Positions 4,409 through 38,870 of a DNA stretch of 42,982 nucleotides are shown in pieces. Each line of letters begins with the position of its first letter. The first letter of the stretch is position 1. Location: IMG/VR virus record IMGVR_UViG_3300018063_000023, positions 1 through 42,982 of that record; one strand, given 5' to 3'. The DNA comes from a virus. The position numbers and the translations under genes are program-made. The notes under the pieces are model-generated. The model did not search any database. It saw only the letters and a list, made by a program, of their open reading frames with translations, and had not been told where the DNA came from.

Positions 4409-4741
4409 ATGTTGGTGGGCATAGTTGACCCGTCTCATTACGAACGCGCGCATGCGCGTGCCGGCAGGCTGCCTAATTGGCTGACGCTGGACGAGGCACT
4501 GCTGGCCTCGTCAGCGCCGAACCCGAAGTGGTCACCGTGGACCTTCGAGATAATCCAGGCGGCTCTGGGAGAGCACCAAGAGCGCGGTACGCGCCTGTCT
4601 ACCACTGCGCTGACCTCACCCTGTCCTAGGGCTGAGGTGCTGAAGCGTAGCGTAGACTACATCGGGTCTCTGGACGACATGTACGCGCCGCTGCGGGGTA
4701 CCATGGTTCACCGTACCCTATCCTCGCAGCGTGCGGATTGA
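4409..4741 (+). CDS. truncated N-terminal paralogue of the Cas4-like nuclease
   Basis: 110 aa starting directly after a stop, with GGAGGGCGAG as ribosome binding site. It aligns along its length with the first ~105 residues of the nuclease at 12218-13129: LVGIVDP/LVGVIDP, LPNWLT/LPNWMT, STTALTS/STTALTT, EVLKRSVDYIG/EVLKRKEDYIG, LRGTMVHRTL/LRGTLIHRTL. The single N-terminal cysteine is kept. Homology stops right after HRTL, where the frame ends, so the PD-(D/E)XK core and the three C-terminal cysteines are missing and it cannot be an active nuclease. It is either a decaying duplicate or a retained helical domain. Confidence 0.75.
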   Translation: MLVGIVDPSHYERAHARAGRLPNWLTLDEALLASSAPNPKWSPWTFEIIQAALGEHQERGTRLSTTALTSPCPRAEVLKRSVDYIGSLDDMYAPLRGTMVHRTLSSQRAD

Positions 4742-7059: not shown

Positions 7060-7298
7060 TGACGACAAAAGCTAAGATCGGGGATATCGTCGCCGTCGAA
7101 TGGCAGGATGCCTGGTGTATTCACGAAGAAAGTTCCGAAAATGACTGGGCGGATTCTTTCGCGCTGACGACGTATGGCATTCTCCGCCGTAACGGGGATA
7201 TCGTTACGGTCGAAAGCGAGACCAATGTTAACGGCGAGGGTCGGTGCACTACGCATATCCCGCGCGGAATCGTGTCGCGCATCCGGCGGCTTACGTGA
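7059..7298 (+). CDS. hypothetical 79-aa beta-rich protein
   Basis: TAATG-coupled to the acidic peptide. It begins MTTKAKIGDIVAVEWQDAW, has repeated beta-type stretches (GDIVTVESETN), and ends IPRGIVSRIRRLT. The short KIGDIVAVEW opening resembles small SH3-like or KOW-like barrels, but this is only a resemblance. The last 4 bases overlap the 5' end of the tRNA-His, so a transcript cannot yield both intact. Confidence 0.6.
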   Translation: MTTKAKIGDIVAVEWQDAWCIHEESSENDWADSFALTTYGILRRNGDIVTVESETNVNGEGRCTTHIPRGIVSRIRRLT

Positions 7299-7366
7299 GG
7301 CGGGGGTGGGTGGTAGCCCGTCCGGTTGTGTCCCGGAAGGATCAGGTTCGATTCCTGGGCCTCACT
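7295..7366 (+). tRNA. tRNA-His (anticodon GTG)
   Basis: Complete 72-nt cloverleaf. Acceptor GTGAGGC (7295-7301) pairs fully with GCCTCAC (7359-7365). D stem GGGT/GCCC has an 8-nt loop, and anticodon stem TCCGG/CCGGA holds loop TTGTGTC, giving anticodon GTG (7329-7331 region). The variable loop is 4 nt and the T arm is TCAGG-TTCGATT-CCTGG. Two oddities: base 37 is U rather than a purine, and neither G-1 nor C73 (base 73 is T, base -1 is C), the usual histidine identity pair, is encoded. CCA is not encoded. Confidence 0.85.
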
Positions 7367-7397
7367 CCGTATAATGGTGATAGTGGGTTTAGCCCAC
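7347..7397 (+). promoter_or_regulatory. possible promoter (TATAAT) and small hairpin upstream of the exonuclease operon
   Basis: A perfect TATAAT lies at 7370-7375, 4 nt after the tRNA. The hexamer 17 bp upstream (TTCGAT, 7347-7352) is a poor -35. A GTGGG-TTTAG-CCCAC hairpin at 7383-7397 follows in the leader of the next gene. This is the only gap in this part of the arm where genes are not directly coupled, so a separate promoter is plausible but unproven. Confidence 0.25.
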
Positions 7398-7659: not shown

Positions 7660-8236
7660 ACAAGTTGCCGAGATGAGAGTGCTGTATTTTGACTTGGAGT
7701 GCAAGCCCGGGCACTGGATCGGCGGGGATTATGTGTCGAAGATCATTACTGCCGGAGCATATGCCTTCGGAGAAGATGATCCTACAGTGTTGACCCATTA
7801 CGAAGTTCTTCCGGGCGACATCGCCCGAGAAATTGCGAACGCAGTTAGGTCGGCCGATCTTGTAGTGGGGCATTACATCCGCGGGTTCGACCTGCCGTTG
7901 TTGAACGGTGAGCTGCTTCGCGCGGAAGAACCACCGCTTGGACCCGTCCTCTCGCATGACACCAAAGAGGATTTGTATCCAGCGCACGGCCGGAGCAAGA
8001 GCCAAAAGAACTTAGGTGCCGACTTGAAGCTGGATAACCCGAAAATCGAAGTGACCCTTGCGGAGTGGGAGGGCTTTAACGGTCGATACCCGGGGTTCGA
8101 GGAGAAGATCATCGAGCGCGTCGTCGGCGACGTGGTTCAAAACCGCGAGCTGCGACTGGCGCTCATCGACATCGGCTGGATCGGCCCGCCGACTATCTGG
8201 CAGCCCGATGGGCGGGAGGCGGTGTACGTACCGTGA
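7649..8236 (+). CDS. DnaQ-like 3'-5' exonuclease (RNase H fold)
   Basis: 195 aa with the DEDD exonuclease motifs: Exo I D15-x-E17 (YFDLECKPG), Exo II GHYIRGFDLPLLN with the conserved D, and an Exo III-like GDVVQNREL segment. Such stand-alone proteins degrade DNA or RNA from the 3' end and may proofread or trim ends. The family A polymerase here has its own exonuclease domain, so this is an extra activity. The ATG at 7649 overlaps the previous gene; an alternative ATG at 7673 begins just before the first motif (MRVLYFDLE). The stop overlaps the next GTG. Confidence 0.82.
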   Translation: MKLRQVAEMRVLYFDLECKPGHWIGGDYVSKIITAGAYAFGEDDPTVLTHYEVLPGDIAREIANAVRSADLVVGHYIRGFDLPLLNGELLRAEEPPLGPVLSHDTKEDLYPAHGRSKSQKNLGADLKLDNPKIEVTLAEWEGFNGRYPGFEEKIIERVVGDVVQNRELRLALIDIGWIGPPTIWQPDGREAVYVP

Positions 8237-8721
8237 GGGAACTAGAAACCTGGAGTAACGAATTCTGGCCAGAAGTTTTTGAAAAGAGAGACAAGTGGGA
8301 TCAGCGATTCCTTGATATGGCAAGTCTCATCAAGACGTGGAGCAAGGACCCGAATACGCAGACCGGAGCTGTCATCGTGCGGCCGAATCGCTCGATCGCC
8401 AGCGTGGGCTTCAACGGCTTCCCGCGAAACATGCGGGACGATGAGGAGCTGTACGCTGACCGGCCCAAGAAGTTGAGCCGAATTGTTCATTGCGAGATGA
8501 ATGCTCTACTAGCGGCAGTCGAGCCAGTACGGGGTTACATGCTCTATACAACCACCATGTGCTGTGACCGGTGCGTAGTCCACATGCTACAAGCGGGTAT
8601 CTCGCGATTCGTCTGGCCTGAAGATACCAAAGGCATGATGAGCCGGTGGGCGGAATCCTTTGCCCTGACCCAATCTTACCTGGACGAGGCCGGAGTCTCT
8701 TACAGGGAGGTGTCGAGGTGA
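8233..8721 (+). CDS. dCMP deaminase
   Basis: 162-aa zinc deaminase that converts dCMP to dUMP. It has the cytidine/deoxycytidylate deaminase signature: HCEMNALL (zinc His and catalytic Glu) and TTMCCDRCVVHM (second zinc pair, C-x2-C), plus the N-terminal KDPNTQTGAVIV typical of dCMP deaminases. GTG start in a GTGA overlap with the exonuclease stop. No thymidylate synthase lies in the window, so dUMP must be used by a host enzyme or one encoded outside. Confidence 0.92.
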   Translation: MRELETWSNEFWPEVFEKRDKWDQRFLDMASLIKTWSKDPNTQTGAVIVRPNRSIASVGFNGFPRNMRDDEELYADRPKKLSRIVHCEMNALLAAVEPVRGYMLYTTTMCCDRCVVHMLQAGISRFVWPEDTKGMMSRWAESFALTQSYLDEAGVSYREVSR

Positions 8722-9308
8722 AACTAGCCTTTGACTATGACGATGTTCTTGTGGATTTCGTGCAGGCATGGTGTGATAGTGTAAATGAGCAGCATCCAAC
8801 TGCTACCATTACCCGCGAAGGTTTGATCCTCGACGGCTGGGACATGTCTAAACACGCATCCGATATCGTGGGAATGGACTGGCTCCAATGGCTTGAAATA
8901 CATTTGGAGTACTGGTACAATGCCAAGACTACGCCCGGGGCGCTAGATGCTCTCCAAACCTTAAAGACGCGGGGACACACTCTTGAGATCGTTACCAACA
9001 AACCCGAATGGGCCAGGCCTGTGGTATGGAATTGGCTCGGATACAATAACCCCCCGTTCGATCAAGTCACGATCACCAACCACTTCGGTAAGGAAGATAT
9101 CTCCAATGCCGACGTGTTGATCGACGACCGGCCAAGTACGTTGGATAGGTGGGTGGCGTCCAGACCCGGCCGAGTCGGTATCTTATTCGCAAGAAGCCAA
9201 AATGTTAAAGAGCAGGGCATGTTCCCAACAGCGTACACGATGCAGGATGTCGTTAACCTAGTTGACAAGATCAGCAACGGGAAGGGCGGGCACAATGACC
9301 CATGGTAA
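8718..9308 (+). CDS. HAD-family 5'(3')-deoxyribonucleotidase
   Basis: 196 aa. GTG at 8718 overlaps the deaminase stop (GTGA). HAD motif I is FDYDDVLVDF (nucleophile Asp and acid/base Asp), motif II is EIVTNKP with Thr, and motif IV is DVLIDDRPSTLDRW. This matches the NT5C-type deoxyribonucleotidase group, which removes phosphate from dNMPs. Beside dCMP deaminase and the DUF5664 protein it suggests adjustment of the deoxynucleotide pool. Substrate preference cannot be read from sequence. Confidence 0.85.
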   Translation: MKLAFDYDDVLVDFVQAWCDSVNEQHPTATITREGLILDGWDMSKHASDIVGMDWLQWLEIHLEYWYNAKTTPGALDALQTLKTRGHTLEIVTNKPEWARPVVWNWLGYNNPPFDQVTITNHFGKEDISNADVLIDDRPSTLDRWVASRPGRVGILFARSQNVKEQGMFPTAYTMQDVVNLVDKISNGKGGHNDPW

Positions 9309-12065: not shown

Positions 12066-12240
12066 ACGTGACGACAACCATAGGGTATTGTTGGATATTC
12101 GCAATCTGTTGCTAGTCATTGCCGATGCAGTTACTGCGGGTCATCCAGCAGACAAGGTTGCGGCTCGGGCAAAGTTTCATATACTGGCTAACCAACGAGC
12201 AGAGGAGTTGAATAACAGTGCCCCTAGTCGGAGTAATTGA
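12049..12240 (+). CDS. hypothetical 63-aa helical protein
   Basis: The ATG at 12049 (or the second in-frame ATG at 12055) overlaps the membrane gene by 17 nt; GGAAGCGAAGAG lies upstream. The product is helix-rich (DDNHRVLLDIRNLLLVIADAV) with a polar C-terminus that carries the GAGGAG site for the nuclease gene. Function unknown. Confidence 0.6.
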   Translation: MSMFTERDDNHRVLLDIRNLLLVIADAVTAGHPADKVAARAKFHILANQRAEELNNSAPSRSN

Positions 12241-13129
12241 TCCAACCGGTAAAGAGGCTCTGCCGCATCCCGGCAACCTCCCTAACTGGATGACGCAAGA
12301 GCAGCTTCTTCAAATGCTCGCGTCAAACGAACTGGGTGAATCCCACTGGACATACGAGATGGCCGCCGCCGCTATCCAGAACGTGCAAGACCGGGGGGAT
12401 ATAATCAGCACGACGGCACTAACCACCAGCTGTATCCGCGGGGAAGTCCTCAAGCGCAAGGAAGATTACATTGGAGATTTGAACGACTTGTGGACCGCCT
12501 TACGGGGAACGCTGATACACAGGACGCTAGAAATTGCCTCACCTCCCGGGTCTATTTCCGAAGTACGATTCTTCACGGAGGTAGACGGAATCGAAATCAG
12601 CGGCCAGCCGGATATGATGACCGAGAAGTACCTCGTGGACTACAAAGTACCGGCGGATCAGAACACGATCCCGATGAGCTACCTGTACTCCAACCAGACC
12701 GAGCAGTTGATGATCAACGCCTTTATCGCGCGCAATGCAACGCGGTGGGATCCCGAGGACCTTCCATTTGATCCTCGGGACTACCCGGTCGAAAGCGTCG
12801 GCATTGTTTTCATCGGCCCAAAGCGGCCCAAGGTAATGGTTCACAAGGCATCGGTCGAGGTCATCGGCAAGAACGGAAAGCCTAAAAGGGTGCGCCTCCC
12901 GGTGGTCTGGTCTGACGAGGAAGTCCTGCACACGATTCGGCCACGAATGCACTTGCTCAAGAATGCGCTCGACAGCTACCCGGATTGGCCGAAGCCGTAT
13001 GTGGAACCGGGCGGGGTAACCTGGACAGTCAACGACCTTTGGGGCGGCGATGAAACTTGGGATTGTCCTGGGTGGCCGTTCTGCAAATTCGCTACGTGTC
13101 TCGCGAAGAGGAAGGTATACAAATGGTAA
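12218..13129 (+). CDS. Cas4/RecB-like PD-(D/E)XK exonuclease with four cysteines
   Basis: 303 aa, GTG start at 12218 with GAGGAG upstream. The nuclease core has H101 (LRGTLIHRTLE), D132 (GQPDMM) and D141-x-K143 (LVDYKVP), then a Q-motif-like helix (SNQTEQLMINAF). One N-terminal Cys (C72) and three C-terminal Cys (C283, C289, C294) reproduce the split 1+3 cysteine arrangement that holds the Fe-S cluster in Cas4 and AddB nucleases. Expected activity is resection of DNA ends for recombination, packaging or replication. No Cas1/Cas2 or array is nearby, so this is a phage nuclease rather than CRISPR adaptation. A truncated paralogue sits at 4409-4741. Confidence 0.88.
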   Translation: MPLVGVIDPTGKEALPHPGNLPNWMTQEQLLQMLASNELGESHWTYEMAAAAIQNVQDRGDIISTTALTTSCIRGEVLKRKEDYIGDLNDLWTALRGTLIHRTLEIASPPGSISEVRFFTEVDGIEISGQPDMMTEKYLVDYKVPADQNTIPMSYLYSNQTEQLMINAFIARNATRWDPEDLPFDPRDYPVESVGIVFIGPKRPKVMVHKASVEVIGKNGKPKRVRLPVVWSDEEVLHTIRPRMHLLKNALDSYPDWPKPYVEPGGVTWTVNDLWGGDETWDCPGWPFCKFATCLAKRKVYKW

Positions 13130-14418: not shown

Positions 14419-14783
14419 TATGCATTGCCTGTCGTAATTACTCGTGCGAGGTAGCCGAGAAGGGCGCCTACAACTGCCGCGCCACCTGCGTAATACGCCA
14501 TGCGCTTTTCCAGCACACCGATCGCCGTGGAGAGCACATCGACTCTCGCGTCGAATAGCTCACGGGTGACCCCGCGGTTAGTTTGGTCCACCAGGGCTGA
14601 GCGGAATTCATTCATGGCGTCTAGGCGCTTGTCCTGGGCGACACTTGCTATGCGGATACCCTCCGCGAGTTGTCTGTGCTCTCTAGCGTGGTCTTGAAAC
14701 ACTCGCTCGAAGTAGTCGCGCAGACTTACGAAGCGTCCATCAGAGCCGTGATAGTTGCCATTTGCGTCAGAGTCTTTGTTCAT
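14418..14783 (-). CDS. 121-aa coiled-coil protein with C-terminal membrane anchor
   Basis: Directly follows the endolysin and is coupled to it by overlap at 14783. The N-terminal region is helical and polar (SLRDYFERVFQDHAREHRQ), then a second helical stretch (FDARVDVLSTAIGVLEKRM). One C-terminal span at about 95-115 (YYAGGAAVVGALLGYLARVI) follows. The single C-terminal anchor with cytoplasmic coiled coil resembles holin-like accessory proteins of actinophages. Function inferred from location only. Confidence 0.7.
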   Translation of the reverse strand: MNKDSDANGNYHGSDGRFVSLRDYFERVFQDHAREHRQLAEGIRIASVAQDKRLDAMNEFRSALVDQTNRGVTRELFDARVDVLSTAIGVLEKRMAYYAGGAAVVGALLGYLARVITTGNA

Positions 14784-15421
14784 TATGCCACCGGAGTATC
14801 TTGTCCGTGGACGTGCGGGTGTTGCGCTAGTCCCACGTGAAAGTGCTCCTCAGCCTTGGGGCGCGAGGTTGCTACCTTGGCGGCGTTGAAACCCCTTTTC
14901 TTGTGCTTGGTCCAGAAGTCCTTAAAGGCGATACCGGCAAGCTGCGCATCCCAGCCCTCCTCGTATTCATCTAGGTTCATGTCTACTTCCTCCGCGTAGC
15001 CACCTTGGTACGTGATGTGCCACGATTCACTCGGTATGTCAAATTTGAATCCAAATCTCTCCGCGTTGTGGTGCGCCCAAGCAATATCACTGTCTTGACT
15101 CCAACTCAAGTCAAATGCCACAGCCCAACCGTGGTTGCTGGTGCCGGGGTAAGCTGCCAGGTTTCCCCCGTTTTGGTAGTCGATCCACTTCTCCCACTGC
15201 TTTGACAGCGTACGATAACTGTACTTGACCCAGATATGAATGCCCTGAGCCTTAGCTTCCGCGAGGAAGTCTGACATTGCCAAGGCTGCGTCAGGATGGG
15301 CGATAGCAGGACCTTGCAAGTCAATATCATACTGCTGGGGATATACCTCAGCCAGGAGGTCACGGGGAATGTCACCATTGTTGACACTCGCGCGCCACTG
15401 CGTCTTGTTGTAGTACGCCAT
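14783..15421 (-). CDS. endolysin, M15/VanY-type L-Ala-D-Glu or D-Ala-D-Ala peptidase
   Basis: 212 aa. The peptidase M15 signature is S95-N-H97-GWAVAF-D104, with a later E132-x2-H135 (SESWHI). H97, D104 and H135 are the zinc ligands, and KYSYRTLSKQ earlier is the usual substrate-side Arg region. It should cut peptide stems or cross-links of peptidoglycan. The C-terminal ~75 residues lack a recognisable wall-binding domain but contain several His (HFHVGLAQHPHVHG). It lacks a signal peptide, so release depends on a holin among the following genes. Confidence 0.9.
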   Translation of the reverse strand: MAYYNKTQWRASVNNGDIPRDLLAEVYPQQYDIDLQGPAIAHPDAALAMSDFLAEAKAQGIHIWVKYSYRTLSKQWEKWIDYQNGGNLAAYPGTSNHGWAVAFDLSWSQDSDIAWAHHNAERFGFKFDIPSESWHITYQGGYAEEVDMNLDEYEEGWDAQLAGIAFKDFWTKHKKRGFNAAKVATSRPKAEEHFHVGLAQHPHVHGQDTPVA

Positions 15422-18400
15422 TACGCACCTCCCGCCGGGATACCGGCCGCTGCGAGTACATTGTTAGTTGCCCCATACATTGCGTTGAGGTCTTCTGTCG
15501 TTGGCAGCGGGTATCCCAGCTGCTTGAGGTAGTCCATCGTCGGCAACACCGTTCCGTAATAGAAGTTCAGCTCTTCGGACATGAACTCTGCCTCACCGTA
15601 AGTCCTAAAAGAGACACCAGATGCAGCCGATATCAAGGCCGAGCCTCGAAGCTTGGTCCGCTTCGGGTCTTCATATAGCCAGTCTCGGAATCGTCCGACA
15701 ATCGGAATCACGCCCAACGTGTTCTGAAGTTTGTCGTCGATGTAATACCCGCCGTCCTCTCCTGTCTGTCCGATCCCGATTCCGGACAGCAATTTACCGA
15801 CAAACGGAATGTTATCAATCCAGGCAACCTTGACCGGCGCGCCCTCAATCGGCTTCCCGGTGAAGAAGCTCTTCTCAGTCACGTAGCTCTCAAGGAAAGG
15901 CCGGGCGAGGGGCAGGATGCTTGAGAACAATTCTCCCGCGCCTTGGTACAAGTCATTCATCGGCAGGTCGGCAGCGACAAGGTTGATCGCGTCTTCAGTA
16001 CTACCCAGTGTCGGGATCGAAAAGCCTTCCTGTGCCCACTCCGGCAATTTGCTCCTCACATCCTCCTGGTCGATCCCGGTCGCCGTGTAGAAGGCATCCT
16101 TAGCGTGCAGGACACCCATCAACTTGCCGGGATTCTCGAACAGAGTGTGGATCTGGAGGGGCGTGTTAGTTCGCATCCACTTATAGAAGGGAACGACATC
16201 GCGGATCGCACCGTATTCCCAGTCAGACAGGTCCCCATAATCACCGTGGCGCATCATTGTGAACGTGTGGGCGCCCATCATGTCGCCGTCGGTCTGCTTG
16301 AGCCCCTGAAGGAAGGCCGCCCCGCGAAGCATATTCTCAGTAAGCTCGCCGGTTCCGCGTAGTTTCTTGGCGATGATTCGACCAGGCTTACCGGCCTTAA
16401 CATTCTTGCGGAACGCGGTATCGACGATCGTCCAGGGAGAGTCAGCAGGCTTTGCCATCTCCTTGTCTAGTAGCTCAGAACCGATTCTGGCCGCGCCGAA
16501 CGTCTGGCTGTTACCGGCATTGATCCCGTTGTTGGTAAGCAAGACGGCGAGGTCGGCGTAAGTCGGATCGAGCCCAAAGTAGTAATCCCCCAGACCGTGC
16601 TTGTTGATAAACTCTCTGGGGAGCTTGGTACTTGACCATTTTGGTTTTGCAGCACCAGTCTCCACCTCCCGGCGGGCACGCATAGCCCTGCCGATCTCTA
16701 CATAGTCTTCGATTTGAACTCCACCAAGCCAGTTATTGAACCAGCCGCCCATCATGTTACGGATGTGGAAGCCGGGCCATGCCCACGTCGCCCATTCCTT
16801 CCACCAAGAAAGGTAGCGGCGCCAGACTTTCTGGAATTCATTCAAACTCTTGAAGCCCCTGGCAGCATAGTTGAATTCGTCCGCCATAGTCGCGGGCATG
16901 TAGACATCCTCAAGTCCCGGGACCATGACCTTGCCCATACCGACGTGTTCGGGATCTCCAATTCGCAAAGCGACCTTGGGATCAGCAACCCTGGCCTGCG
17001 CGGAGAACTGGATTCTATTCCACTCCTCCGCCGCCTCCTTCATTGCATTAGTTTGCCAATCGGCTTTTTGTCTTAGCCGATCCAATTCAGCTTCGCGTCC
17101 TTGAAGTTGCTTGACCAACCCCGGGCGAAGGTTTTCTGGCGTGGCGGCAGCCTTTCGGGCCGAGGCGATATCCTCCGGCAAGCCCCTATGCTCTTGAAGC
17201 CACTGCACTGTATTAACTTCGCGGTCGATCGCACTCTGAATTCGCTCGTTCAGACCTGCGAGCGTGGTCTCAATTCGACGCATATCCTTTTGGGCAACCT
17301 TGGCAACCTTGGTCTGGTGCCTGGCCATCTTCTGAGCTAGCTGCCAGAATTTCTCGGACTGCTGAGAAAGCCATTTGCCGCTGTTCATATACGCAGCGGA
17401 GGGAGCCGCCTCATACCGCGGGCCGAGGAATCTGGAAGTAAACGGAGAGCGGGACAAGCCCATCTGTTGCAACCTTCTAGTCTGCCTACCGAGGTAGATG
17501 TTGCCCACATCGTTAGCCATGCCGTCAACGTAGGCGGCTAGGTTAGCGGGCACGTCCACATCCAACATCCGCATATCATCAGGGACTTCTAGATCCATCT
17601 CACGCAGCATCTTGCGAATATGATTGTCAGCCTCCCCAAAGTTCATGTCCTTTGTCTGGCGCTCAAAATGAGCATCCCAGTCGCGGGGGGCTCGGCGCTC
17701 AATCGTACCCGGCTTACCCTCTAATAGTTCGTGAACTTCTGAGGTCATCCTGCGGTGGAAGTAGCCCTGCTCGGGGCCGTAAATAGGGGCGTCATTCGTC
17801 AGCTCCCAGATCGGGGCTCTGTCGCCCGTTTGTAGCCCCTTCTCAAAGACTACCACGCGCTGCTTGCCGTCCTTGACATGAATAACGCCATCGTGGCCCG
17901 CTTCTTCTAAGAACTGAGTCTTCAGACGGGCGGCAATCTCGTCTTGCGACTCCAGTGCAATTCGCGCCATCTCCCGAGTCATGCCTTCAGGGGCGAGTCC
18001 TAGGTCTTTTAGCATTTCCTGGACTTGCTCATCCATTTCGTCGAACTTGGGATTATCGAGGATCGCGCGAATCTGCGGATCCCACTTCTCGTTGAACATT
18101 TCCATTGTCTTGGCGACGTACTCGTCAGCCTGCTCTGCAATATCCATCCCGCCTGCCGTAGTCGTATCGACCGGGCGCTTGCCACGTTTGATCATAGCCG
18201 CGGCATCTTCATTGATCACAACGGGATTTTTCAAGGCGGCAACAGCTTGCTTACGTGGGTAAGCATTGGAACCCTTATTGATGATCTCGCGTGCCTGTGG
18301 GTCTTCCCGCAAGTCTTTGATCAGCTTGTCTATCCCCTCGGAGTTGTATTGGGATTCTTCCTGAGTAAAGACCTTTCCTACTATGTCCCTAAAGCGCGGA

Positions 18401-21400
18401 TCGCTCTCCGGGATCTTCCCGAGCGAGCGGCCGATGAACTCATCCATCGCAGCCATCTCGGCATCCAATGCTCCAGGACCCATGATCTCCAGGTAGTCTG
18501 ATGGCAAAACCTTGTTCCAGCCACCGTCAAGCGGGTCGCCGAACAGCTCGGTCGCGAGGTCCTCCTTCTGCCCGGGATCCATTTCCGGGGAGCGCTTCAT
18601 GAACTCGTCGAAGTCCGGATCGCCCTCGAACCGCGAGCGGTGCCAGGCGTCGATTGAGCCCAGCTTCTCTTGCCAATACGCGATGTCCGTCGCCTCGTCC
18701 AACTCGCCGATCTGCTTATTTCCGAGGATCTGCCCCCACTTCGGGTCCACCGCCTCAGACTGGGCAAAGTTGTCGATGAGGTCGAGATGCTCCTCCGGCA
18801 CACCGAAGCCCGCCACCAGGGTACGGATGTTGGCGGATGGCTCGATGTCAGGACGCTCAACAAAGTCGCCGACATGCATCTTTTTGATCTCGTCGCCAAC
18901 GCCGAGCGCCTTCGAAACTCGGGGGAGTGGTGTCAGTTCTGCATCAACCTGGTTGATGAATCCCTGGGCATCGTCAACCCAAGCAGGTTCGGGAATCCAC
19001 TCCACGTCGTACTCGACACTGGGATCAAGAGCTTCAACTCGATGGTGCCCATCGAAGATGAAGTACTGGCCGTCCTCGGGGTCGTACGCCAAGCGGATTG
19101 GGCGCTTCTGGCCCTCTTCAGTCAGCTTCTTGGCGAACTCTTCCTTGCTGCCGTGGCTCTTGCGCCATTCGATCCCATCGTACTTAACCTTGGGGTCGTA
19201 TGCTTCTCGAAGTTGGGCGCCAGTCATTCTATCCGGCATGTTGTATCTTGGATCTTTTTTAGCTACGAGATCTAACTGCTTCTGGATCGCAGCAAACGCT
19301 TCCTCGCCTTGGGTTGCCGCGTCAGTGATATCGTCAAGCTCTCGAACGTCGTCTAACTCGATGCCATCGAGCATCTTCTGGGTCTCATCTTCTATATTCT
19401 TTAGGAAGGCGTCCGCCTTGGCGCCCTGATCTTTGGCGGCGGGCTTGGAGGCGTCCATGACCCAGTTAAACGTCTTGTCGAAGTCGGGGGGCTCGACGAG
19501 ATTGGGACTCCGCTTAGCCAAAGAGCGCCAAAGCTCTTGGGCGTCCCCGGATAGAGTTACATCAGACATCAAGACGCCGCCGCGCTTTTCAGCCTCGTCG
19601 GCTAACCTGTGATACATCTTCTTGCCGAGGCCGCGACCCCGCAGTTCTTCGGGGAGACCGACCCCCTGGATCACGATATTGCCCGATTCGTCGATCTCAG
19701 CGTCCAGTCCGGCCCTGCCGCTCGCGGCGTTATCGTAACCTTCGAAGTCGATCCTTACGCTGTTGCCCTCAATGTCTATTTCGATCGGGGGAAGCTCCGG
19801 GGACTCAGGAGAAGGCCGTTCCGGTCCACCTCTTGGCCCCTCTGGTCCCTCTGGGGCTCCCTTAGTACCAGGAGCTTCCGGCTGGACCGGCGGGGCAAAT
19901 TCATCAATCTCTTCCAGGTCGTACCCGCGCCCGAACGGAGTGTCTACTACATCTTCCAGCTCGAAACCAGGACCCACGCCCTCCCGGCGGGTGGCCCGCT
20001 GCACATAAGTCTTCCCGTGCTGTAAAACGTGCCCGGTCTCCACGACCTGCCTGTTGGCAGGGTGAATCACCGGCTCCGCCCCGGCGCGAATAGTGCTGTT
20101 GGCCGTGTGGCCTCCGAACTCGTTATGGATCTTTACGGTCTGTTTAGCCGCAAGGCGGTAAATCCGAGCCGCTAAGCCGATCTCTGGCGACTCCTTCATC
20201 AGAAGCTCGACTTGCTTCGCGTGCGAGAGTCTAATCTCATTGGTCTTCAACATCTGCTCTATCACATCGTCGGGCAATTTGTTCCTCTGGATGATCCCGG
20301 TGCGTTCGCTGTACCAACGTTCCGCGCCCATTTGTTGCGCTCGATAATCTGGGAACGACTCCAAGGCGCGAATCACGATCGTCGGATCATCTGGATACTT
20401 TTCCCTGACTAGCCGGTCGAGTTGGTGAAGCGTCCTCTGAGTCTCCGGCACAGACATGCGGCCAGTACCGCGTTTGGATACGTCACCAACAGCGTCTAGC
20501 TTCAAGCCGGAATTAGCAAGGTCTTCCAAGGGCTTGGGATCGTCTAAGTCCACGTCGTTTGCAAGTTCGAGCGCTTCCCTTTGAAGGGTTGCTTTGATAG
20601 ACCGAACCGTCTTCCGCGCGTCAGCAGACAGTGCGGTACCGAGCCCGCCCCCGCGCACGAGAGCAAACGAGCCTAAGTTACGGGTGATCCCACCAATCTG
20701 CCACGAGGCACTAGCAAACGCAGTTCCCAGCCTACCTCCCGGTCCACCAAAGTGCTGTGCCACTTGCGGAACTGCCTGCTTCAGCCCGTTCCACCCACCT
20801 GTCGTAGCGGCTTCGAGAGCTTGGCGGGCAAGAAAGGGGTCAAGCGTCTTACGTTCCACAGCTCTCATGATTCTATATTGCCCGCTCAGGCCGCTCATGA
20901 AGCGCCTGGCGATGCTCATATCCATCTTGGCCGTGCCCCATATAGCGGGAGTAATAATCCTGATACCGGGCAGGCTGAATCGAACCCCCCCAAGAAGTGA
21001 GGCTGCATAACGTCCTTGCATGTATTCCGCCCGGGTCCCGAACTTTCCTACGATCTTTTGAGCTTGAAGAATCTTAGTCATCTCGTCTATCGGGATACCG
21101 AATTGCTCGGCCATCTTTGGCCCGAGCCGGTTAAGCCCAAATTTACCGATGACCTTGTGCGCCTCGTCCGCAACTTTCAAAGCGTGAAGAGCAACGGCTT
21201 TATCAGCCCCGTGCAAGGCCATGCCTAGCGGCCCTCCGATAAAGTCTTGGTGAACGACGGACAAATCGTCTGCTAAAGCACCCCACTTCCCCGACCGGCC
21301 CATTCGCGGGTCTGTAATCGTCTTCCACCAGTGTTCAAATGCCTTGGCCCTTACTTGATCCCAGGGAGCATCGTCGGCAAGGTTAAGGGCTTTCTTGCCT

Positions 21401-22161
21401 AAAGTAGATGCAATATTGTCCAGAGTGGACAAGCCTTCCCCATACATCACAGCCTTGGCAGCGGTCATCGAGCCGAACCTCGTAGCTCCAATCCGGCCGA
21501 CTGATCCCAGACCGGCAGTCATATACGTCAGCGGGTCTACGGCAACATCCAAGCCAAATGACGTAACCCCCCGCCCGATTTTGGACAGGAGGTCATCGCC
21601 CTGCATGATATTCATTTGTTCGAGCCAGTCGCCCATCGTGGCGTCGGAATGCCCGCTAAGGGCATCACCCACGTTCTTCCAGATGCTCTCGTCTCCATCA
21701 GTCAGGATCTCGGGAATGATTCTTCCCGGCCTGGTGATGATTTCCAGCGCCTTCCCCAGCGGCGAAGACGCAACCGTCTGCAAGATACGACCAAAGAAAC
21801 CCGGACTATCGGGCTCTTCCCCGCGTTGAACAGACAACTGCTCTGCAAGCTCTGGATTTACCTGGGCGATTCTTGCGAGCGCGCGATCCGTTTGCTGATT
21901 AGCCCCGAGAAGAGTCTCGGCGGGGTCGGCGTTGCCCGATCCGCCAAGAGCAGTGGTCATTCTAGTTAACCAGTCATCCCCCGCAGCAACTATTCCTGGT
22001 GTCTGAATCTGAAGCTGTTGCGGGAGAAACGCTGACAGAGAAGACTGTGCGTCTAACGGGCCGAGTCCGAACGTGTTCGGGTCCGGCGCCGGTAGGGGCA
22101 TTCCTTGGGGAGTGGGCAGACCGGCAGGTACCGGTAGCATCCGCTCTAGAGGTGTTGACAA
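15421..22161 (-). CDS. giant internal virion / polyvalent ejection protein, 2246 aa
   Basis: The largest gene here. The N-terminal ~750 residues are mainly helical with no clear enzyme motif. A Pro/Glu/Gly linker (755-792) leads to a GNAT-like segment (about 792-885) with LPEELRGRGLGKKMYHRL, the acetyl-CoA-binding motif. At about 1015-1060, YFIFDGHHRVEAL is the ParB/sulfiredoxin-type DGHHR motif. At about 1385-1445, EEAGHDGVIH and RVVVFEKG resemble the end of phage ADP-ribosyltransferase-like domains (tentative). Coiled coil follows at 1600-1720, then WPGFHIRNMMGGWFNNWLGG (1795-1814), seen in other giant podovirus proteins. As last of three virion genes before lysis it matches T7 gp16-like ejection proteins. 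Confidence 0.85.
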   Translation of the reverse strand: MSTPLERMLPVPAGLPTPQGMPLPAPDPNTFGLGPLDAQSSLSAFLPQQLQIQTPGIVAAGDDWLTRMTTALGGSGNADPAETLLGANQQTDRALARIAQVNPELAEQLSVQRGEEPDSPGFFGRILQTVASSPLGKALEIITRPGRIIPEILTDGDESIWKNVGDALSGHSDATMGDWLEQMNIMQGDDLLSKIGRGVTSFGLDVAVDPLTYMTAGLGSVGRIGATRFGSMTAAKAVMYGEGLSTLDNIASTLGKKALNLADDAPWDQVRAKAFEHWWKTITDPRMGRSGKWGALADDLSVVHQDFIGGPLGMALHGADKAVALHALKVADEAHKVIGKFGLNRLGPKMAEQFGIPIDEMTKILQAQKIVGKFGTRAEYMQGRYAASLLGGVRFSLPGIRIITPAIWGTAKMDMSIARRFMSGLSGQYRIMRAVERKTLDPFLARQALEAATTGGWNGLKQAVPQVAQHFGGPGGRLGTAFASASWQIGGITRNLGSFALVRGGGLGTALSADARKTVRSIKATLQREALELANDVDLDDPKPLEDLANSGLKLDAVGDVSKRGTGRMSVPETQRTLHQLDRLVREKYPDDPTIVIRALESFPDYRAQQMGAERWYSERTGIIQRNKLPDDVIEQMLKTNEIRLSHAKQVELLMKESPEIGLAARIYRLAAKQTVKIHNEFGGHTANSTIRAGAEPVIHPANRQVVETGHVLQHGKTYVQRATRREGVGPGFELEDVVDTPFGRGYDLEEIDEFAPPVQPEAPGTKGAPEGPEGPRGGPERPSPESPELPPIEIDIEGNSVRIDFEGYDNAASGRAGLDAEIDESGNIVIQGVGLPEELRGRGLGKKMYHRLADEAEKRGGVLMSDVTLSGDAQELWRSLAKRSPNLVEPPDFDKTFNWVMDASKPAAKDQGAKADAFLKNIEDETQKMLDGIELDDVRELDDITDAATQGEEAFAAIQKQLDLVAKKDPRYNMPDRMTGAQLREAYDPKVKYDGIEWRKSHGSKEEFAKKLTEEGQKRPIRLAYDPEDGQYFIFDGHHRVEALDPSVEYDVEWIPEPAWVDDAQGFINQVDAELTPLPRVSKALGVGDEIKKMHVGDFVERPDIEPSANIRTLVAGFGVPEEHLDLIDNFAQSEAVDPKWGQILGNKQIGELDEATDIAYWQEKLGSIDAWHRSRFEGDPDFDEFMKRSPEMDPGQKEDLATELFGDPLDGGWNKVLPSDYLEIMGPGALDAEMAAMDEFIGRSLGKIPESDPRFRDIVGKVFTQEESQYNSEGIDKLIKDLREDPQAREIINKGSNAYPRKQAVAALKNPVVINEDAAAMIKRGKRPVDTTTAGGMDIAEQADEYVAKTMEMFNEKWDPQIRAILDNPKFDEMDEQVQEMLKDLGLAPEGMTREMARIALESQDEIAARLKTQFLEEAGHDGVIHVKDGKQRVVVFEKGLQTGDRAPIWELTNDAPIYGPEQGYFHRRMTSEVHELLEGKPGTIERRAPRDWDAHFERQTKDMNFGEADNHIRKMLREMDLEVPDDMRMLDVDVPANLAAYVDGMANDVGNIYLGRQTRRLQQMGLSRSPFTSRFLGPRYEAAPSAAYMNSGKWLSQQSEKFWQLAQKMARHQTKVAKVAQKDMRRIETTLAGLNERIQSAIDREVNTVQWLQEHRGLPEDIASARKAAATPENLRPGLVKQLQGREAELDRLRQKADWQTNAMKEAAEEWNRIQFSAQARVADPKVALRIGDPEHVGMGKVMVPGLEDVYMPATMADEFNYAARGFKSLNEFQKVWRRYLSWWKEWATWAWPGFHIRNMMGGWFNNWLGGVQIEDYVEIGRAMRARREVETGAAKPKWSSTKLPREFINKHGLGDYYFGLDPTYADLAVLLTNNGINAGNSQTFGAARIGSELLDKEMAKPADSPWTIVDTAFRKNVKAGKPGRIIAKKLRGTGELTENMLRGAAFLQGLKQTDGDMMGAHTFTMMRHGDYGDLSDWEYGAIRDVVPFYKWMRTNTPLQIHTLFENPGKLMGVLHAKDAFYTATGIDQEDVRSKLPEWAQEGFSIPTLGSTEDAINLVAADLPMNDLYQGAGELFSSILPLARPFLESYVTEKSFFTGKPIEGAPVKVAWIDNIPFVGKLLSGIGIGQTGEDGGYYIDDKLQNTLGVIPIVGRFRDWLYEDPKRTKLRGSALISAASGVSFRTYGEAEFMSEELNFYYGTVLPTMDYLKQLGYPLPTTEDLNAMYGATNNVLAAAGIPAGGA

Positions 22162-22174
22162 GTTACTTCTCCCA

Positions 22175-23248
22175 TTAGATTAGTCCGCCGCCCACCATCG
22201 GCGCGTATTTTGTCAGTTCGGCGGCAAGACCAAATTGCTCCGCACTAAGAGGTCCGCCCGGGCCAAAGAAGCCCGACCAGGAGAGTCCTCCACCGGCCAT
22301 GTTCTGATTCAACGTCGCGCCGTATAGCTTCGGAGTCAATGCCGCATCGATATCAGAGGCATAGTCCGAGTAACCCGGGTAGGCATTTGTGATCGAATTT
22401 CTCATCAAGCCCTTGACCCATCCGAAATCGGGTAGTCCATTTTCTCCGATATGACCTGCCCCACCCATAACCGCCTTGTACATGATATCCGTCAAAAGCG
22501 CCGTGGCGGCCGGATCTACCGTATTGGAGGCGGCCCATTGGCGGGCAAAGTCGGCCACGTTCAGGTTATTATCTCCAACCTTGATCGTGCCATCCTCTTG
22601 CTTGTTTTTCAAAGCTTCTTGAAGGTCCACGACCAACTGCGACATCGGCGCCCCCACAGCCTCCACGACGGCCGGTGCTCCTTCAAGCTTAGCGTCTGCG
22701 GCCATTTTCTGCTGCAAGTCAAACATCTTTTGCTGGCTTTCAAGTTCGAGTTGCGAGGCGAATTGCATCCTAGCCATCTCAAAATTCTGTGAAACGATCG
22801 ACTCGTAGATTGCCGCCTTCGCGGACCAATCCATCTTCTTCATGTCGATACCGATCTGCTTGACATATGCATCTGCTTCAGCCAATGCGCTCTTGGCGGA
22901 AATCACAGACGGCTTGGCCGCCTGCGTAACTCGCGCCATCGCCGCATCTTGAGCAATCGGCAACGCGGCCTTTCCGGCCTCATAAACGCCCGTACTGACC
23001 TGTGAGACGGCCGCGGCTGCCTTTGCCTGAGCCACGCGAGATTGCAGAGTCATTTTCCCCGCAGTCCCCCTCGCCTGGGCGGGATCATATGCTTGCGCGA
23101 TTGTACCGGCCATTGCCTGGCCGTACATCTCCCTCGTCTTCATCTCAGAGGATTGAACCCGCCTAGCCGATGCTTTTGCTCTATCGGACAATCTGCTAAT
23201 AGCCCTCATGTTGCGCCTGGCTACAATAGTTCCATAGGTTTGCGCCAT
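22175..23248 (-). CDS. internal virion protein, 357 aa
   Basis: Coupled by overlap to the gene before it, with the giant protein gene next. The N-terminal ~190 residues are Ala/Gln/Lys-rich helices (RAISRLSDRAKASARRVQ; ELESQQKMFDLQQKMAADAK). The C-terminal part is mixed and Gly-rich (GGGLSWSGFFGPGGPLS). Helical, Ala-rich proteins between the nozzle and a giant protein are typical podovirus ejectosome components (T7 gp14/gp15 position). Assigned by composition and context; no sequence motif. Confidence 0.65.
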   Translation of the reverse strand: MAQTYGTIVARRNMRAISRLSDRAKASARRVQSSEMKTREMYGQAMAGTIAQAYDPAQARGTAGKMTLQSRVAQAKAAAAVSQVSTGVYEAGKAALPIAQDAAMARVTQAAKPSVISAKSALAEADAYVKQIGIDMKKMDWSAKAAIYESIVSQNFEMARMQFASQLELESQQKMFDLQQKMAADAKLEGAPAVVEAVGAPMSQLVVDLQEALKNKQEDGTIKVGDNNLNVADFARQWAASNTVDPAATALLTDIMYKAVMGGAGHIGENGLPDFGWVKGLMRNSITNAYPGYSDYASDIDAALTPKLYGATLNQNMAGGGLSWSGFFGPGGPLSAEQFGLAAELTKYAPMVGGGLI

Positions 23249-24033
23249 TAGTATCTAAACTCCCCCGTTGAACTTACTCTGCCGGGGAAAGCAGATCTTG
23301 TGGGTGCCCCAGGAGGTGTCAATCCGAACTGAGCCCAAATAGCTGTCGGATCATTTGCTTGAGCCTTCATGCCCTTCGCGGTTTGCCTCTCAATCCGTAG
23401 TTGCTTCTGCGCCATCGCCATCTGGGCGGCTGTACTCTGAGCAGTAGCGGATGCCTGCATCTTGGCGGTGCGGATAGCAATCTGGTTCGCTTCCTGCTGT
23501 TGGGCTAGCGACATTCGCTGGGCGATTGCACTCATCTCAAGCTGCTGCGAAGCCTGGTCAAACCCGAGGGCGGCGGCAGTCCCCTGCATCCTACTCTCGG
23601 CAAGCTGGTTATACAAGGATCGATTCACATCCGCGATTCCGCCCGCGACATCCGCGCGAACGCCTGCCCGACCAGCCAAATCGGCACTCCCACCGGACAT
23701 CCCGCGCTCAAGACCGGTATTTACGGTCTCAGTCATCGCGGCCCGTCCCTCGGCCTTTACGTCTTGTCTGGCTACTCCAGCTTCTCCTCTGAGTCCAACC
23801 CTCTGTTGTCTCAGGCCAGCAAGAGTATTAGCAAGCTGAGCCTGCATCGTCTGAATCTGGCCGTAGTAGTTGGCGATGGCGGCCGGGTCGAGAGCGGGAA
23901 GATCTCCGCCCGTCAGCGAACTGAAGTCAAACTGGAATCCTGATCCACCACCCTTAGAAATAGAATTCGCCTGAGTATTTCTCTTACGCTTTGGGGCTCC
24001 CCCTTGACCCATCTCACCCGATGGAAGTGGCAT
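23248..24033 (-). CDS. internal virion protein, 261 aa
   Basis: The start is placed at ATG 24033 (MPLPSGEMGQGG), which has GAGAGGGT upstream and sits directly after the nozzle stop; a longer in-frame form to 24081 would overlap the nozzle gene. A Gly/Ser-rich N-terminus is followed by long Ala/Gln helices (IQTMQAQLANTLAGLRQQRVG; AAQMAMAQKQLRIERQTAKG) and a glycine-alanine patch resembling amphipathic channel helices. Probably the T7 gp14-like first ejected protein. Confidence 0.65.
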   Translation of the reverse strand: MPLPSGEMGQGGAPKRKRNTQANSISKGGGSGFQFDFSSLTGGDLPALDPAAIANYYGQIQTMQAQLANTLAGLRQQRVGLRGEAGVARQDVKAEGRAAMTETVNTGLERGMSGGSADLAGRAGVRADVAGGIADVNRSLYNQLAESRMQGTAAALGFDQASQQLEMSAIAQRMSLAQQQEANQIAIRTAKMQASATAQSTAAQMAMAQKQLRIERQTAKGMKAQANDPTAIWAQFGLTPPGAPTRSAFPGRVSSTGEFRY

Positions 24034-24034
24034 A

Positions 24035-26050
24035 TTACCCTCTCTTGAACCTAGTCCGCAGTGGCTCTGTGTCGATACCAATGCCGTGGATAGCAGTATG
24101 TGCGTTAGCGGTTCCGCTCAGTTTGACGCCGATCGCGTGACCATGAGTCGAGGCAACTTTGCCCTCGACGAACTCGCCTTGAGCAGTACCGGCTAAGGTA
24201 CGATTTACGGTCGTGTTGTCCGTCCCCTCTTCAAAATTCCTGTGCATGGCAATTGTCACTTGCTCGCCGGTCTCACCGGCCACGAGCGCCCACAAGCGCC
24301 GGAGTCTGCGCTCGTTCCGCGTCAGCCCGAACTGGAACCAGCCGGTGCGGTAGCGCCAGGTGATATCAGCTGTAGATGCGGAAGCGGCGGCCGCGGTGAA
24401 ATCATCGTCTACAAATGCTTCAGATCCGGGATCATCCGTGAGCTGGAACAAACACGGGCGCTCCCCCGCCTGCTTGGTAATAGCGGTAGCAAACCACAAC
24501 CGCTGAGACTTTCCTCTTTCACCTACCGCCATGTCGCGGATGGGGATGTCCCACAACCAGAAAGAAGCGGTGTCCGGATGATAAACTAGCGTGTAATCAG
24601 CGCTGTCCGAGTCTGCCATCGACATCAGGATGAATGGTCCGTAAGATACTATCGAGGGCCTCGACAGGAGAGTATCTTGGTATACCTTGTCAACGCGAGT
24701 CTTTATCCACTCGCGTACCTTTTCGAATCCGGGGGCGACATCGATACTCGTACCATCCGTCATACACAACTGCCCAGTCGGGGATAAGAAGTAGACGAGC
24801 CCCTTATGCTCCGTGATACATCCCGGGCCTATGGTCCCCAGTTTGCCCAGGGGGCGTAGGTTCCACGTCTGCTCGTTAACCCCCGCGAGGACGAAGCTCT
24901 CCCACCGGCCACAGATGACTAGATAGCTCCCGTTTGCGTACAGCGCCCGGATTGCATCACCTTTCGAGAACGGGACCGTGAACCAACCGCCCCCGTCCCC
25001 GTCATCGTCGTCAACAGGAGCCCAGTCGGTAGGGCGAAAGTCCAGGTCGGAGATGAGTGTATCTTTTTCGGGCTTTGCAGGGGCGCTGTATTGGAGTCTT
25101 CCCCAATTGTCGGCGTCGTCGTGTCGTACCCACAGGCGGTTCCCATGATAGGTGCCGATCACCCCCTTCCCCGGAAGCGGCATGTATGCCCAGTCACTTG
25201 TGATATCACCGTCCTCATCCTTGATGTTCTTGAGTCGGATATTCTTCCAGAAATCTGTTGGTGTACCCGTTCCATCTCCCGGCCTGTTGGTTGCATCCGA
25301 CGTGTTCGTCTTGATGCACTCGAAAGATCGAAAGTACGTACTCGTCCCGTGGTTCACCTTGCGAGAGACGCGTTCGCCCTTGTTGTACCTCTCCCCGCTC
25401 TCCCAGGTCTTGAACCGGATGCCCCGCAGGGCAGAGTAGAATCTTGAGTTGAATTCGGTTTTTGTTCCCTTCTTGAAAGCAAAGTTGCGGCCATATTGCG
25501 TGGCTGTATTAATTGCATTGCCAACATTGTCCTGCCAATCTCTCACATCGGGAGTCGTCGGGTCTGCGTCCCAGCCGGTTGTAGGATGCCACGAATAGAT
25601 GACTTCACCGCGCGTCCCACCGTAGTATGTGCCCTCTACGATCGCGTACCAGTGCTCGGTGTCAGCCTTAGCCCACGAGCGACCCACCGTGTCTACCCGG
25701 GTAAAAGTATCGGCAGCAAAGTTATACACGAAAATCTGGATATTGTTGGCAGATGCATTTACGCTGCTGGTCAGCACACACACCAAGAACTTCTTGCGCG
25801 TGCCACTGACAATCAGCTCGTAATAGTTAACGTGGCGGATGTAATGCGTGCCGGATAAGCTATCTAAGCGTCCCGCCAGGAGACGAGCGTAGCCCTTGCG
25901 GAGCTCTACCGAACCCGAACCGGGATCTGGCAGCAAGTTCATCAAATCCGGCGACTGGTCTAGGGGTAGACTAGCTTCCTCCGGATCGGGCGCAAAACCG
26001 CCACGAAGTTCCGACAACTCGATTCGATTAGGTGCGACATCTATGGGCAT
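24035..26050 (-). CDS. tail nozzle / stabilisation protein (beta-propeller), 671 aa
   Basis: Start at ATG 26050 (MPIDVAP) with GCGAGGT upstream, just after the previous stop; the longer reading from 26068 would overlap. It begins with a LRGGFAPD and LPLDQSPDLMNLLPD segment, then repeated blade-like strands typical of the podovirus nozzle: GVIGTYHGNRLWVR, DAIRALYANGSYLVICG, GPGCITEHKGLVYFLSPTGQ. This matches by pattern the P22 gp10 / T7 gp12-type tail tube end. Together with the adaptor at 29572-30318 it defines a short tail. Confidence 0.8.
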   Translation of the reverse strand: MPIDVAPNRIELSELRGGFAPDPEEASLPLDQSPDLMNLLPDPGSGSVELRKGYARLLAGRLDSLSGTHYIRHVNYYELIVSGTRKKFLVCVLTSSVNASANNIQIFVYNFAADTFTRVDTVGRSWAKADTEHWYAIVEGTYYGGTRGEVIYSWHPTTGWDADPTTPDVRDWQDNVGNAINTATQYGRNFAFKKGTKTEFNSRFYSALRGIRFKTWESGERYNKGERVSRKVNHGTSTYFRSFECIKTNTSDATNRPGDGTGTPTDFWKNIRLKNIKDEDGDITSDWAYMPLPGKGVIGTYHGNRLWVRHDDADNWGRLQYSAPAKPEKDTLISDLDFRPTDWAPVDDDDGDGGGWFTVPFSKGDAIRALYANGSYLVICGRWESFVLAGVNEQTWNLRPLGKLGTIGPGCITEHKGLVYFLSPTGQLCMTDGTSIDVAPGFEKVREWIKTRVDKVYQDTLLSRPSIVSYGPFILMSMADSDSADYTLVYHPDTASFWLWDIPIRDMAVGERGKSQRLWFATAITKQAGERPCLFQLTDDPGSEAFVDDDFTAAAASASTADITWRYRTGWFQFGLTRNERRLRRLWALVAGETGEQVTIAMHRNFEEGTDNTTVNRTLAGTAQGEFVEGKVASTHGHAIGVKLSGTANAHTAIHGIGIDTEPLRTRFKRG

Positions 26051-26051
26051 G

Positions 26052-26912
26052 TTACCTCGCTGTAGCAAAGTTCATCGTAAACTTGATGGCATCAATATCC
26101 AGGTAGCGCATGGCCGTTCCCAAGCTTTTTGTGATGACCGCCATGACTTGAGACTCGTCACCCGCCCCGGATGGGATGTTGGTAGCAACAGTAGCTACAG
26201 TAGTACCGTCGATTTTGAATATTACCGAAGTCGCCGCCGAATTGATGTCAATCTCCAATCGGTACCAAGTATTAGCAGCTACTGTAATGCCTGTATCAGT
26301 CGATGTCTCAACTGTGTCGTTACGGGTCACAGCCTGCCACTTGCCGCTGTTCACATTATCTACGTACCGGAACATGATGGCATCGGCTGAGTCCATGTCT
26401 GAAGTAGCATTGAAGCCAATGCGATAAGTATATCTATCCGTACCATCTGATAAGTTAGTCGAGGTACGAATCCAAAAAGTTACCCTTACCCGACCGGAAC
26501 CAAAGAGAACCGAGTTAACGTCACCGACCGCAGCCATGGTACGAGCCGTGGAGCTGGCGTTAGTCTCCATGCGGACAATACCAGGATGACTAGCTTCCGG
26601 GGGAATATTCGAAATATTACCACCGCCTGCTACGGCTATCACACGGGTCCGGGCAAAGTTACCTTCAGTGGCAGCAATCTTGTGGAGAAACTCTTCTCCC
26701 CAACGATATGCTGTACGGTTGACTACCAAAGAAGGTTCGTCTGCTACCCAATCTGCACCATCAAAGGAGAGGCTGTCACCTGCTTCTGGTACCGGAGTCG
26801 TGAGCGTATCGGGGTGCGTCGTTGACAAGATGTTGTGCTCGGCACCACCCACCGGACCGGCGGCGGAAAGCTTGCGCCGCCCCGAACTATCGTAGAACGT
26901 CCATCCCCTCAT
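26052..26912 (-). CDS. tail fibre/spike protein with lectin-like domain, 286 aa
   Basis: The N-terminus MRGWTFYDSSGRRK parallels MWTFYTEDGEQK of the next upstream gene, suggesting a common attachment tag. A TTHPDTLTTPVPEAGDSL linker follows, of the kind seen in phage fibres. The C-terminal ~180 residues are a beta sandwich with FWIRTST, YRIGFNATSDMDSADAIMF and TWYRLEIDIN, the pattern of concanavalin/laminin-G-like carbohydrate-binding folds. Likely receptor binding. The stop abuts the nozzle start; the start overlaps the glycine-rich gene stop. Confidence 0.7.
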   Translation of the reverse strand: MRGWTFYDSSGRRKLSAAGPVGGAEHNILSTTHPDTLTTPVPEAGDSLSFDGADWVADEPSLVVNRTAYRWGEEFLHKIAATEGNFARTRVIAVAGGGNISNIPPEASHPGIVRMETNASSTARTMAAVGDVNSVLFGSGRVRVTFWIRTSTNLSDGTDRYTYRIGFNATSDMDSADAIMFRYVDNVNSGKWQAVTRNDTVETSTDTGITVAANTWYRLEIDINSAATSVIFKIDGTTVATVATNIPSGAGDESQVMAVITKSLGTAMRYLDIDAIKFTMNFATAR

Positions 26913-38714: not shown

Positions 38715-38716
38715 AG

Positions 38717-38788
38717 TTGCTGCACCCGGACTCGAACCGGGGACCTTCAGGTTATGAGCCTGACGAGCTGCCTCTGCTCTATGCAGCT
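38717..38788 (-). tRNA. tRNA-Met (anticodon CAT)
   Basis: 72-nt cloverleaf on the - strand. Acceptor AGCTGCA pairs with TGCAGCA except an A-A mismatch at 1-72. D stem is GAGC/GCTC with a 7-nt loop, anticodon stem TCAGG/CCTGA with loop CTCATAA, variable loop AGGTC, T arm CCCGG-TTCGAGT-CCGGG. The 1-72 mismatch is an initiator-like trait, but the anticodon stem lacks the three G-C pairs of initiators, so elongator Met (or Ile if C34 is modified) is more likely. CCA is not encoded. Confidence 0.9.
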
Positions 38789-38796
38789 AAGACAAA

Positions 38797-38870
38797 TGGA
38801 GCGGCGAGAGGGAATCGAACCCTCGTAGCCAGCTTGGAAGGCTGGAACACGGCCTCTATGTCACCGCCGC
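38797..38870 (-). tRNA. tRNA-Gly (anticodon TCC)
   Basis: Cloverleaf on the - strand with encoded CCA (38797-38799). Acceptor GCGGCGG/TCGCCGC (one G-U), D stem ACAT/GTGT, anticodon stem CCAGC/GCTGG with loop CTTCCAA, variable loop CTAC, T arm GAGGG-TTCGATT-CCCTC, discriminator U73 as usual for glycine. It begins at the base next to the portal stop codon, so its 5' end must be cut from the head-operon transcript. Confidence 0.95.

Follow-up and report, generated by a model that had tools for sequence, protein, structure and literature searches.

Polyvalent proteins of phages, as described by Iyer et al. in 2017 (PMC5512222), are presumed to enter the host together with the phage DNA. A metallopeptidase or an LPD domain is frequent in them without being required, and their ART-PolyVal family requires a histidine in strand 1, a tyrosine in strand 2 and an aspartate in strand 5 (PMC5512222). 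Other precedents come from ParB-like domains: the DGHHR motif has been noted in the ParB domains of polymorphic toxins (PMC3482391), and a survey of the ParB-CTPase fold reports its GxxR phosphate motif, as well as a bacterial ParB-acetyltransferase fusion that binds GTP (PMC12704722). Outside model phages, little is known about the proteins that phages inject as infection begins. The window analysed here, a stretch of 42,982 nucleotides from an uncultured short-tailed phage, encodes, next to its tail genes, a giant protein that is best read as a new lineage of polyvalent-type phage protein, with predicted GNAT and ParB/sulfiredoxin (Srx) domains as cargo.

The giant ORF lies on the minus strand (22161 to 15421) and encodes 2,246 residues. 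Its start codon is TTG, separated by 13 nt from the stop of the preceding gene, and a GGAG ribosome-binding-like site is found 7 nt 5' of it (about 22169–22172). The first-pass annotation had proposed this 2246-aa ORF with its strand unstated, together with DNA positions for three motifs, which proved correct once the motifs were located in the translation. These are LPEELRGRGLGKKMYHRL at residues 836–853 (19603–19656), IFDGHHRVEAL at residues 1035–1045 (19027–19059), and EEAGHDGVIH at residues 1419–1428 with VVVFEKG at residues 1436–1442 (together 17836–17907).

Giant internal proteins are typical of podoviruses at the gene position occupied by this one. It is preceded, on the same minus strand, by a nozzle/stabilization-like protein gene (24035–26068), whose family profile matches the protein annotated as ‘phage stabilization protein’ in MW202803 at E 6e-15, and by two small genes (23248–24081, then 22175–23248 directly upstream of the giant), present in seven and four, respectively, of the eight relatives examined. 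A VanY-type carboxypeptidase-like (endolysin-like) gene follows directly downstream (14783–15421, minus strand; Pfam VanY E 1.2e-7). All eight loci examined have the nozzle-like gene upstream of the giant, and in seven of them one or two small genes were recognised in between. Downstream, a VanY-like gene could be recognised in two of the eight relatives; MW202803, deposited as Podoviridae, has one as well, following a shorter giant of 1312 aa. The gene order after the nozzle-like gene thus supports, without proving, an ejection protein. It is from this conserved order that the earlier placing of the giant as the last ejected virion protein draws all its support; the order itself stands, and ejection would be a step of inference beyond it.

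Elsewhere in the window, the products of two plus-strand genes (4409–4741 and 12218–13129) seem to resemble each other in their first residues (GxxDPxxxxA...LPNW...STTALT); the gene at 12218–13129 is present in seven of the eight relatives examined. Genes for tRNA-Met and tRNA-Gly (38716–38870, minus strand) lie between the portal gene and the next, scaffold-like gene, and a tRNA-His gene is found in the early region (7295–7368, plus strand). At 8233–9308 (plus strand), a cytidine/deoxycytidylate deaminase family gene overlaps an NT5C-type nucleotidase gene, forming a nucleotide metabolism pair.

Relatives of the giant were reached through the capsid gene, a FYKWMRTN DNA pattern and core alignments. 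Searches for related loci with the whole giant and with its GNAT segment found nothing, probably owing to the peptides chosen; the protein and its fragments had no match in 50,697 phage records, and two patterns had none in a prophage/host search of 84,980 genomes. Nine full-length relatives of 1810–2221 aa were found in IMG/VR. All keep an N-terminal core (residues about 1–560; 20482–22161, minus strand) and a C-terminal core (from about residue 1700, delimited here as 1712–2246; 15424–17028, minus strand) that carries WATWAWPGFHIRN and PFYKWMRTN, while the middle differs. The N-core profile additionally finds L120 and L118, and the C-core profile matches distant giants at E 5e-28 to 2e-13. 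Neither core matched a Pfam family or a solved structure in the PDB; the one PHROG match of the C core, ‘tail fiber’, is not trusted (best E 1e-4). GC and GC3 computed per domain gave no clear signal of recent import.

The closest relative, G003, has a C core 68–70% identical to that of the giant and is devoid of the GNAT domain. Its proline-rich linker, which corresponds to residues 755–789 of the giant (19795–19899, minus strand), leads almost directly to the ParB region, residues 741–985 of the giant standing against 741–840 of G003 in the alignment. Other relatives carry modules at a different site, ahead of the C core: a DGNHR ParB-like module in G147, and a GNAT-motif module in G013 (Pfam Acetyltransf_7 E 7e-4) and G014. 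The hhalign alignment between the GNAT segment of the giant and the GNAT-like module at this second site spans 22 columns only. Since the cores are common to the nine relatives and the GNAT and ParB modules vary, the ends of the protein are fixed and its middle is variable, within a conserved gene order. In the L150 giant, the C core is split (residues 250–325 and 1607–1792) by about 1280 residues that contain HELSH, a metallopeptidase-like motif.

The GNAT segment (residues 790–905; 19447–19794, minus strand), flanked by the proline-rich linker and by a charged linker, is the firmest of the assignments in this middle part. Pfam Acetyltransf_1 matches the giant at E 0.001, just under the family cut-off, noise matches being at about 0.08, and PHROG relates it to a giant phage protein family at E 1e-4. 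Scanning IMG/VR with a DNA pattern for PEELRGxGxG yielded 20 loci, and the motif mostly sits in a large phage ORF. The closest of them, L121, aligns with the GNAT of the giant over 96 residues (pairwise BLAST E 5e-11, 32% identity); it was picked by the GNAT motif, yet the alignment extends beyond this motif (SDVxxSxDA). A profile of these two sequences matches GNATs of the PDB at E 2.6e-5. The AlphaFold2 (AF2) model, built from four sequences (pLDDT 70.5, pTM 0.65), displays the GNAT order of strands and helices, and all 50 listed Foldseek matches in the PDB are acetyltransferases or GNAT-fold proteins, with probabilities mostly near 1 and a best E of 2.1e-3, none reaching 1e-3 or below. Two phage proteins, 895 and 1290 aa long, are among the top Foldseek matches to viral models. 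The GNAT fold announced from the motif is thus well supported by sequence and model alike.

Recruitment of this domain from the stand-alone GNAT genes of tail operons (Mx9, BUCT555, ppBjS10J-1, MW202489) was considered and rejected, there being no meaningful BLAST similarity and no RGxGxG in these genes. Small separate genes annotated as acetyltransferases occur in phages related by their capsid (L016 14110–14523, L017 14350–14796, L020 24702–25109, L021 24760–25044); they adjoin a stabilization/head-closure gene and have no RGxGxG.

The next segment, residues 976–1062 (18976–19236, minus strand), is likely to adopt a ParB/sulfiredoxin fold, less firmly than the GNAT. PHROG gives a ParB-like match at E 0.009, and with a profile of the giant and G003, SerK and SbnI rank in the top nine PDB matches (E 0.04 to 0.8); the ParB matches are individually weak (E > 0.04 against the PDB) and uniform in kind (SerK, SbnI, sulfiredoxin, KorB). 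The AF2 model of residues 951–1500 has an overall pLDDT of 50.6, its ParB part lying at about 47–74, mostly 55–74. The best 19 Foldseek matches of this low-pLDDT model in the PDB all belong to the ParB/Srx superfamily (ParB, KorB, Noc, PadC, SerK-like, sulfiredoxin), with a best E of only 0.14. The DGHHR motif, at residues 1037–1041, fits the GxxR phosphate motif with its conserved arginine. The ParB/Srx motif of the first-pass annotation is therefore supported, as a probable fold, by weak and consistent matches, and both the GNAT and the ParB-like resemblance, as judged from sequence, are beyond chance. The best-predicted part of the same model is a helical block at residues about 1139–1225 (18487–18747, minus strand), for which no match was found.

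Further on, an ART-like segment (residues 1363–1445; 17827–18075, minus strand) had been proposed as a possible ADP-ribosyltransferase. Its GHDGVI...VVVF is similar to the final part of ART-PolyVal, and L121 has a true ART-PolyVal (Pfam E 1e-20) immediately after its GNAT. This complete domain shows what the segment of the giant is missing: only the D-like GHDGVI, the last strand-turn motif, resembles the family, the histidine and tyrosine strands are absent, and there is no YHGT-type strand. The segment is common to the family and degenerate, and the D-like position is missing in G010, G012 and G013. Only 12 columns align to ART with hhalign, the AF2 prediction is one low-confidence hairpin with pLDDT mostly below 55 and no ART fold, and searches by Pfam, Foldseek and PDB profile gave no ART match. 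It is thus hardly credible that residues of about 1380–1450 form a working ADP-ribosyltransferase and, on present evidence from sequence and model, the giant does not appear to be one. In the L144 giant (G010), a stretch at residues about 1236–1360, ahead of the C core, looks ART-like by eye (LWRGE ... FTSHDEEVAARYA ... GYDAIQM), with no support from Pfam or the PDB.

Whether the two predicted folds are active is a further question. They could be inactive structural modules, kept as spacers or used for binding during assembly or in the ejection channel, with nothing acetylated. In the giant, Trp878 replaces the common GNAT tyrosine, which L121 retains; the GNAT-like modules ahead of the C core are degenerate in G003, G009, G011 and G012; and the stand-alone GNAT-fold proteins from tail operons of phages related by the major capsid protein (MCP) lack RGxGxG. 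Against this, the coenzyme A loop is intact in the giant (R841-G-R-G-L-G846, fitting [RQ]xxGx[GA]), as is DGHHR, and DGHHRV is unchanged in G003, within a segment that is only 41% identical overall, so that we hold loss of activity to be doubtful. It is quite unlikely that the giant is never injected, being instead a non-virion protein made late or a purely structural one, with any enzyme acting in the producing cell. Gene order is the evidence from which a virion role is deduced, and it is this same order, kept behind the nozzle-like gene in eight loci, paralleled in MW202803 and usual for podovirus internal proteins, that speaks against such an alternative.

On the whole, and with moderate confidence, we favour the view that this is the giant internal (ejection) protein of a podovirus-like phage and that it contains an exchangeable cargo bay. 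Functions in the virion or in ejection would fall to the conserved N- and C-terminal cores; the middle would form the bay, its domains being exchanged between phages. The giant would be packaged in the virion and leave it together with the DNA or just before. Once injected, the GNAT may bind acetyl-CoA in the host and acetylate a target there, most probably a protein; the ParB-like domain may bind an NTP and either sense nucleotides or act as a nuclease. An active acetyltransferase may be delivered in this way, possibly against host defences, as the first-pass annotation suggested. A more elaborate version, which we regard as unlikely, makes the family a delivery scaffold in which injected enzymes are swapped at fixed exchange sites (the linker near residues 755–960 and the stretch ahead of the C core); GNAT and ParB would then be paired, and acetylation of a host target in defence or growth would be under the control of nucleotide binding to ParB. 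A conserved scaffold with cargo gained or lost between close relatives makes the two functions separable in tests, and the variable middle is a possible source of new host-modifying enzymes.

Several known systems share part of these features. The giant of MW202803, annotated ‘chromosome segregation’, is homologous through the C core (E 2e-13) and has the VanY gene downstream, as here; it is shorter, and a Pfam scan found neither GNAT nor ParB in it. The L121 giant (IMGVR_UViG_3300021197_000933, 2402 aa) shares a homologous GNAT inside a giant phage protein. It differs by the full ART-PolyVal after this GNAT and, by eye, a metallopeptidase-like HEMGH, and its C-terminal part is unmatched by the core profile of the present family. 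DGHHR/GxxR is common to the giant and to the toxin and ParB-CTPase systems (PMC3482391, PMC12704722), among which acetyltransferase fusions exist, whereas the predicted ParB domain sits here inside a giant phage protein. Unlike many polyvalent proteins, the giant has no metallopeptidase motif (no HExxH that could free the cargo was found by motif scan), no LPD domain in Pfam and no curated ART-PolyVal match, and its ParB-like segment is DGHHR-type. Like them (PMC5512222), it is a huge multi-domain phage protein beside virion genes, a context supported by PHROG, the eight loci and the MW202803 profile match. Its predicted GNAT and ParB/Srx folds, which would provide at least two domains of unlike activity, both belong to superfamilies on the published list of polyvalent protein domains (PMC5512222).
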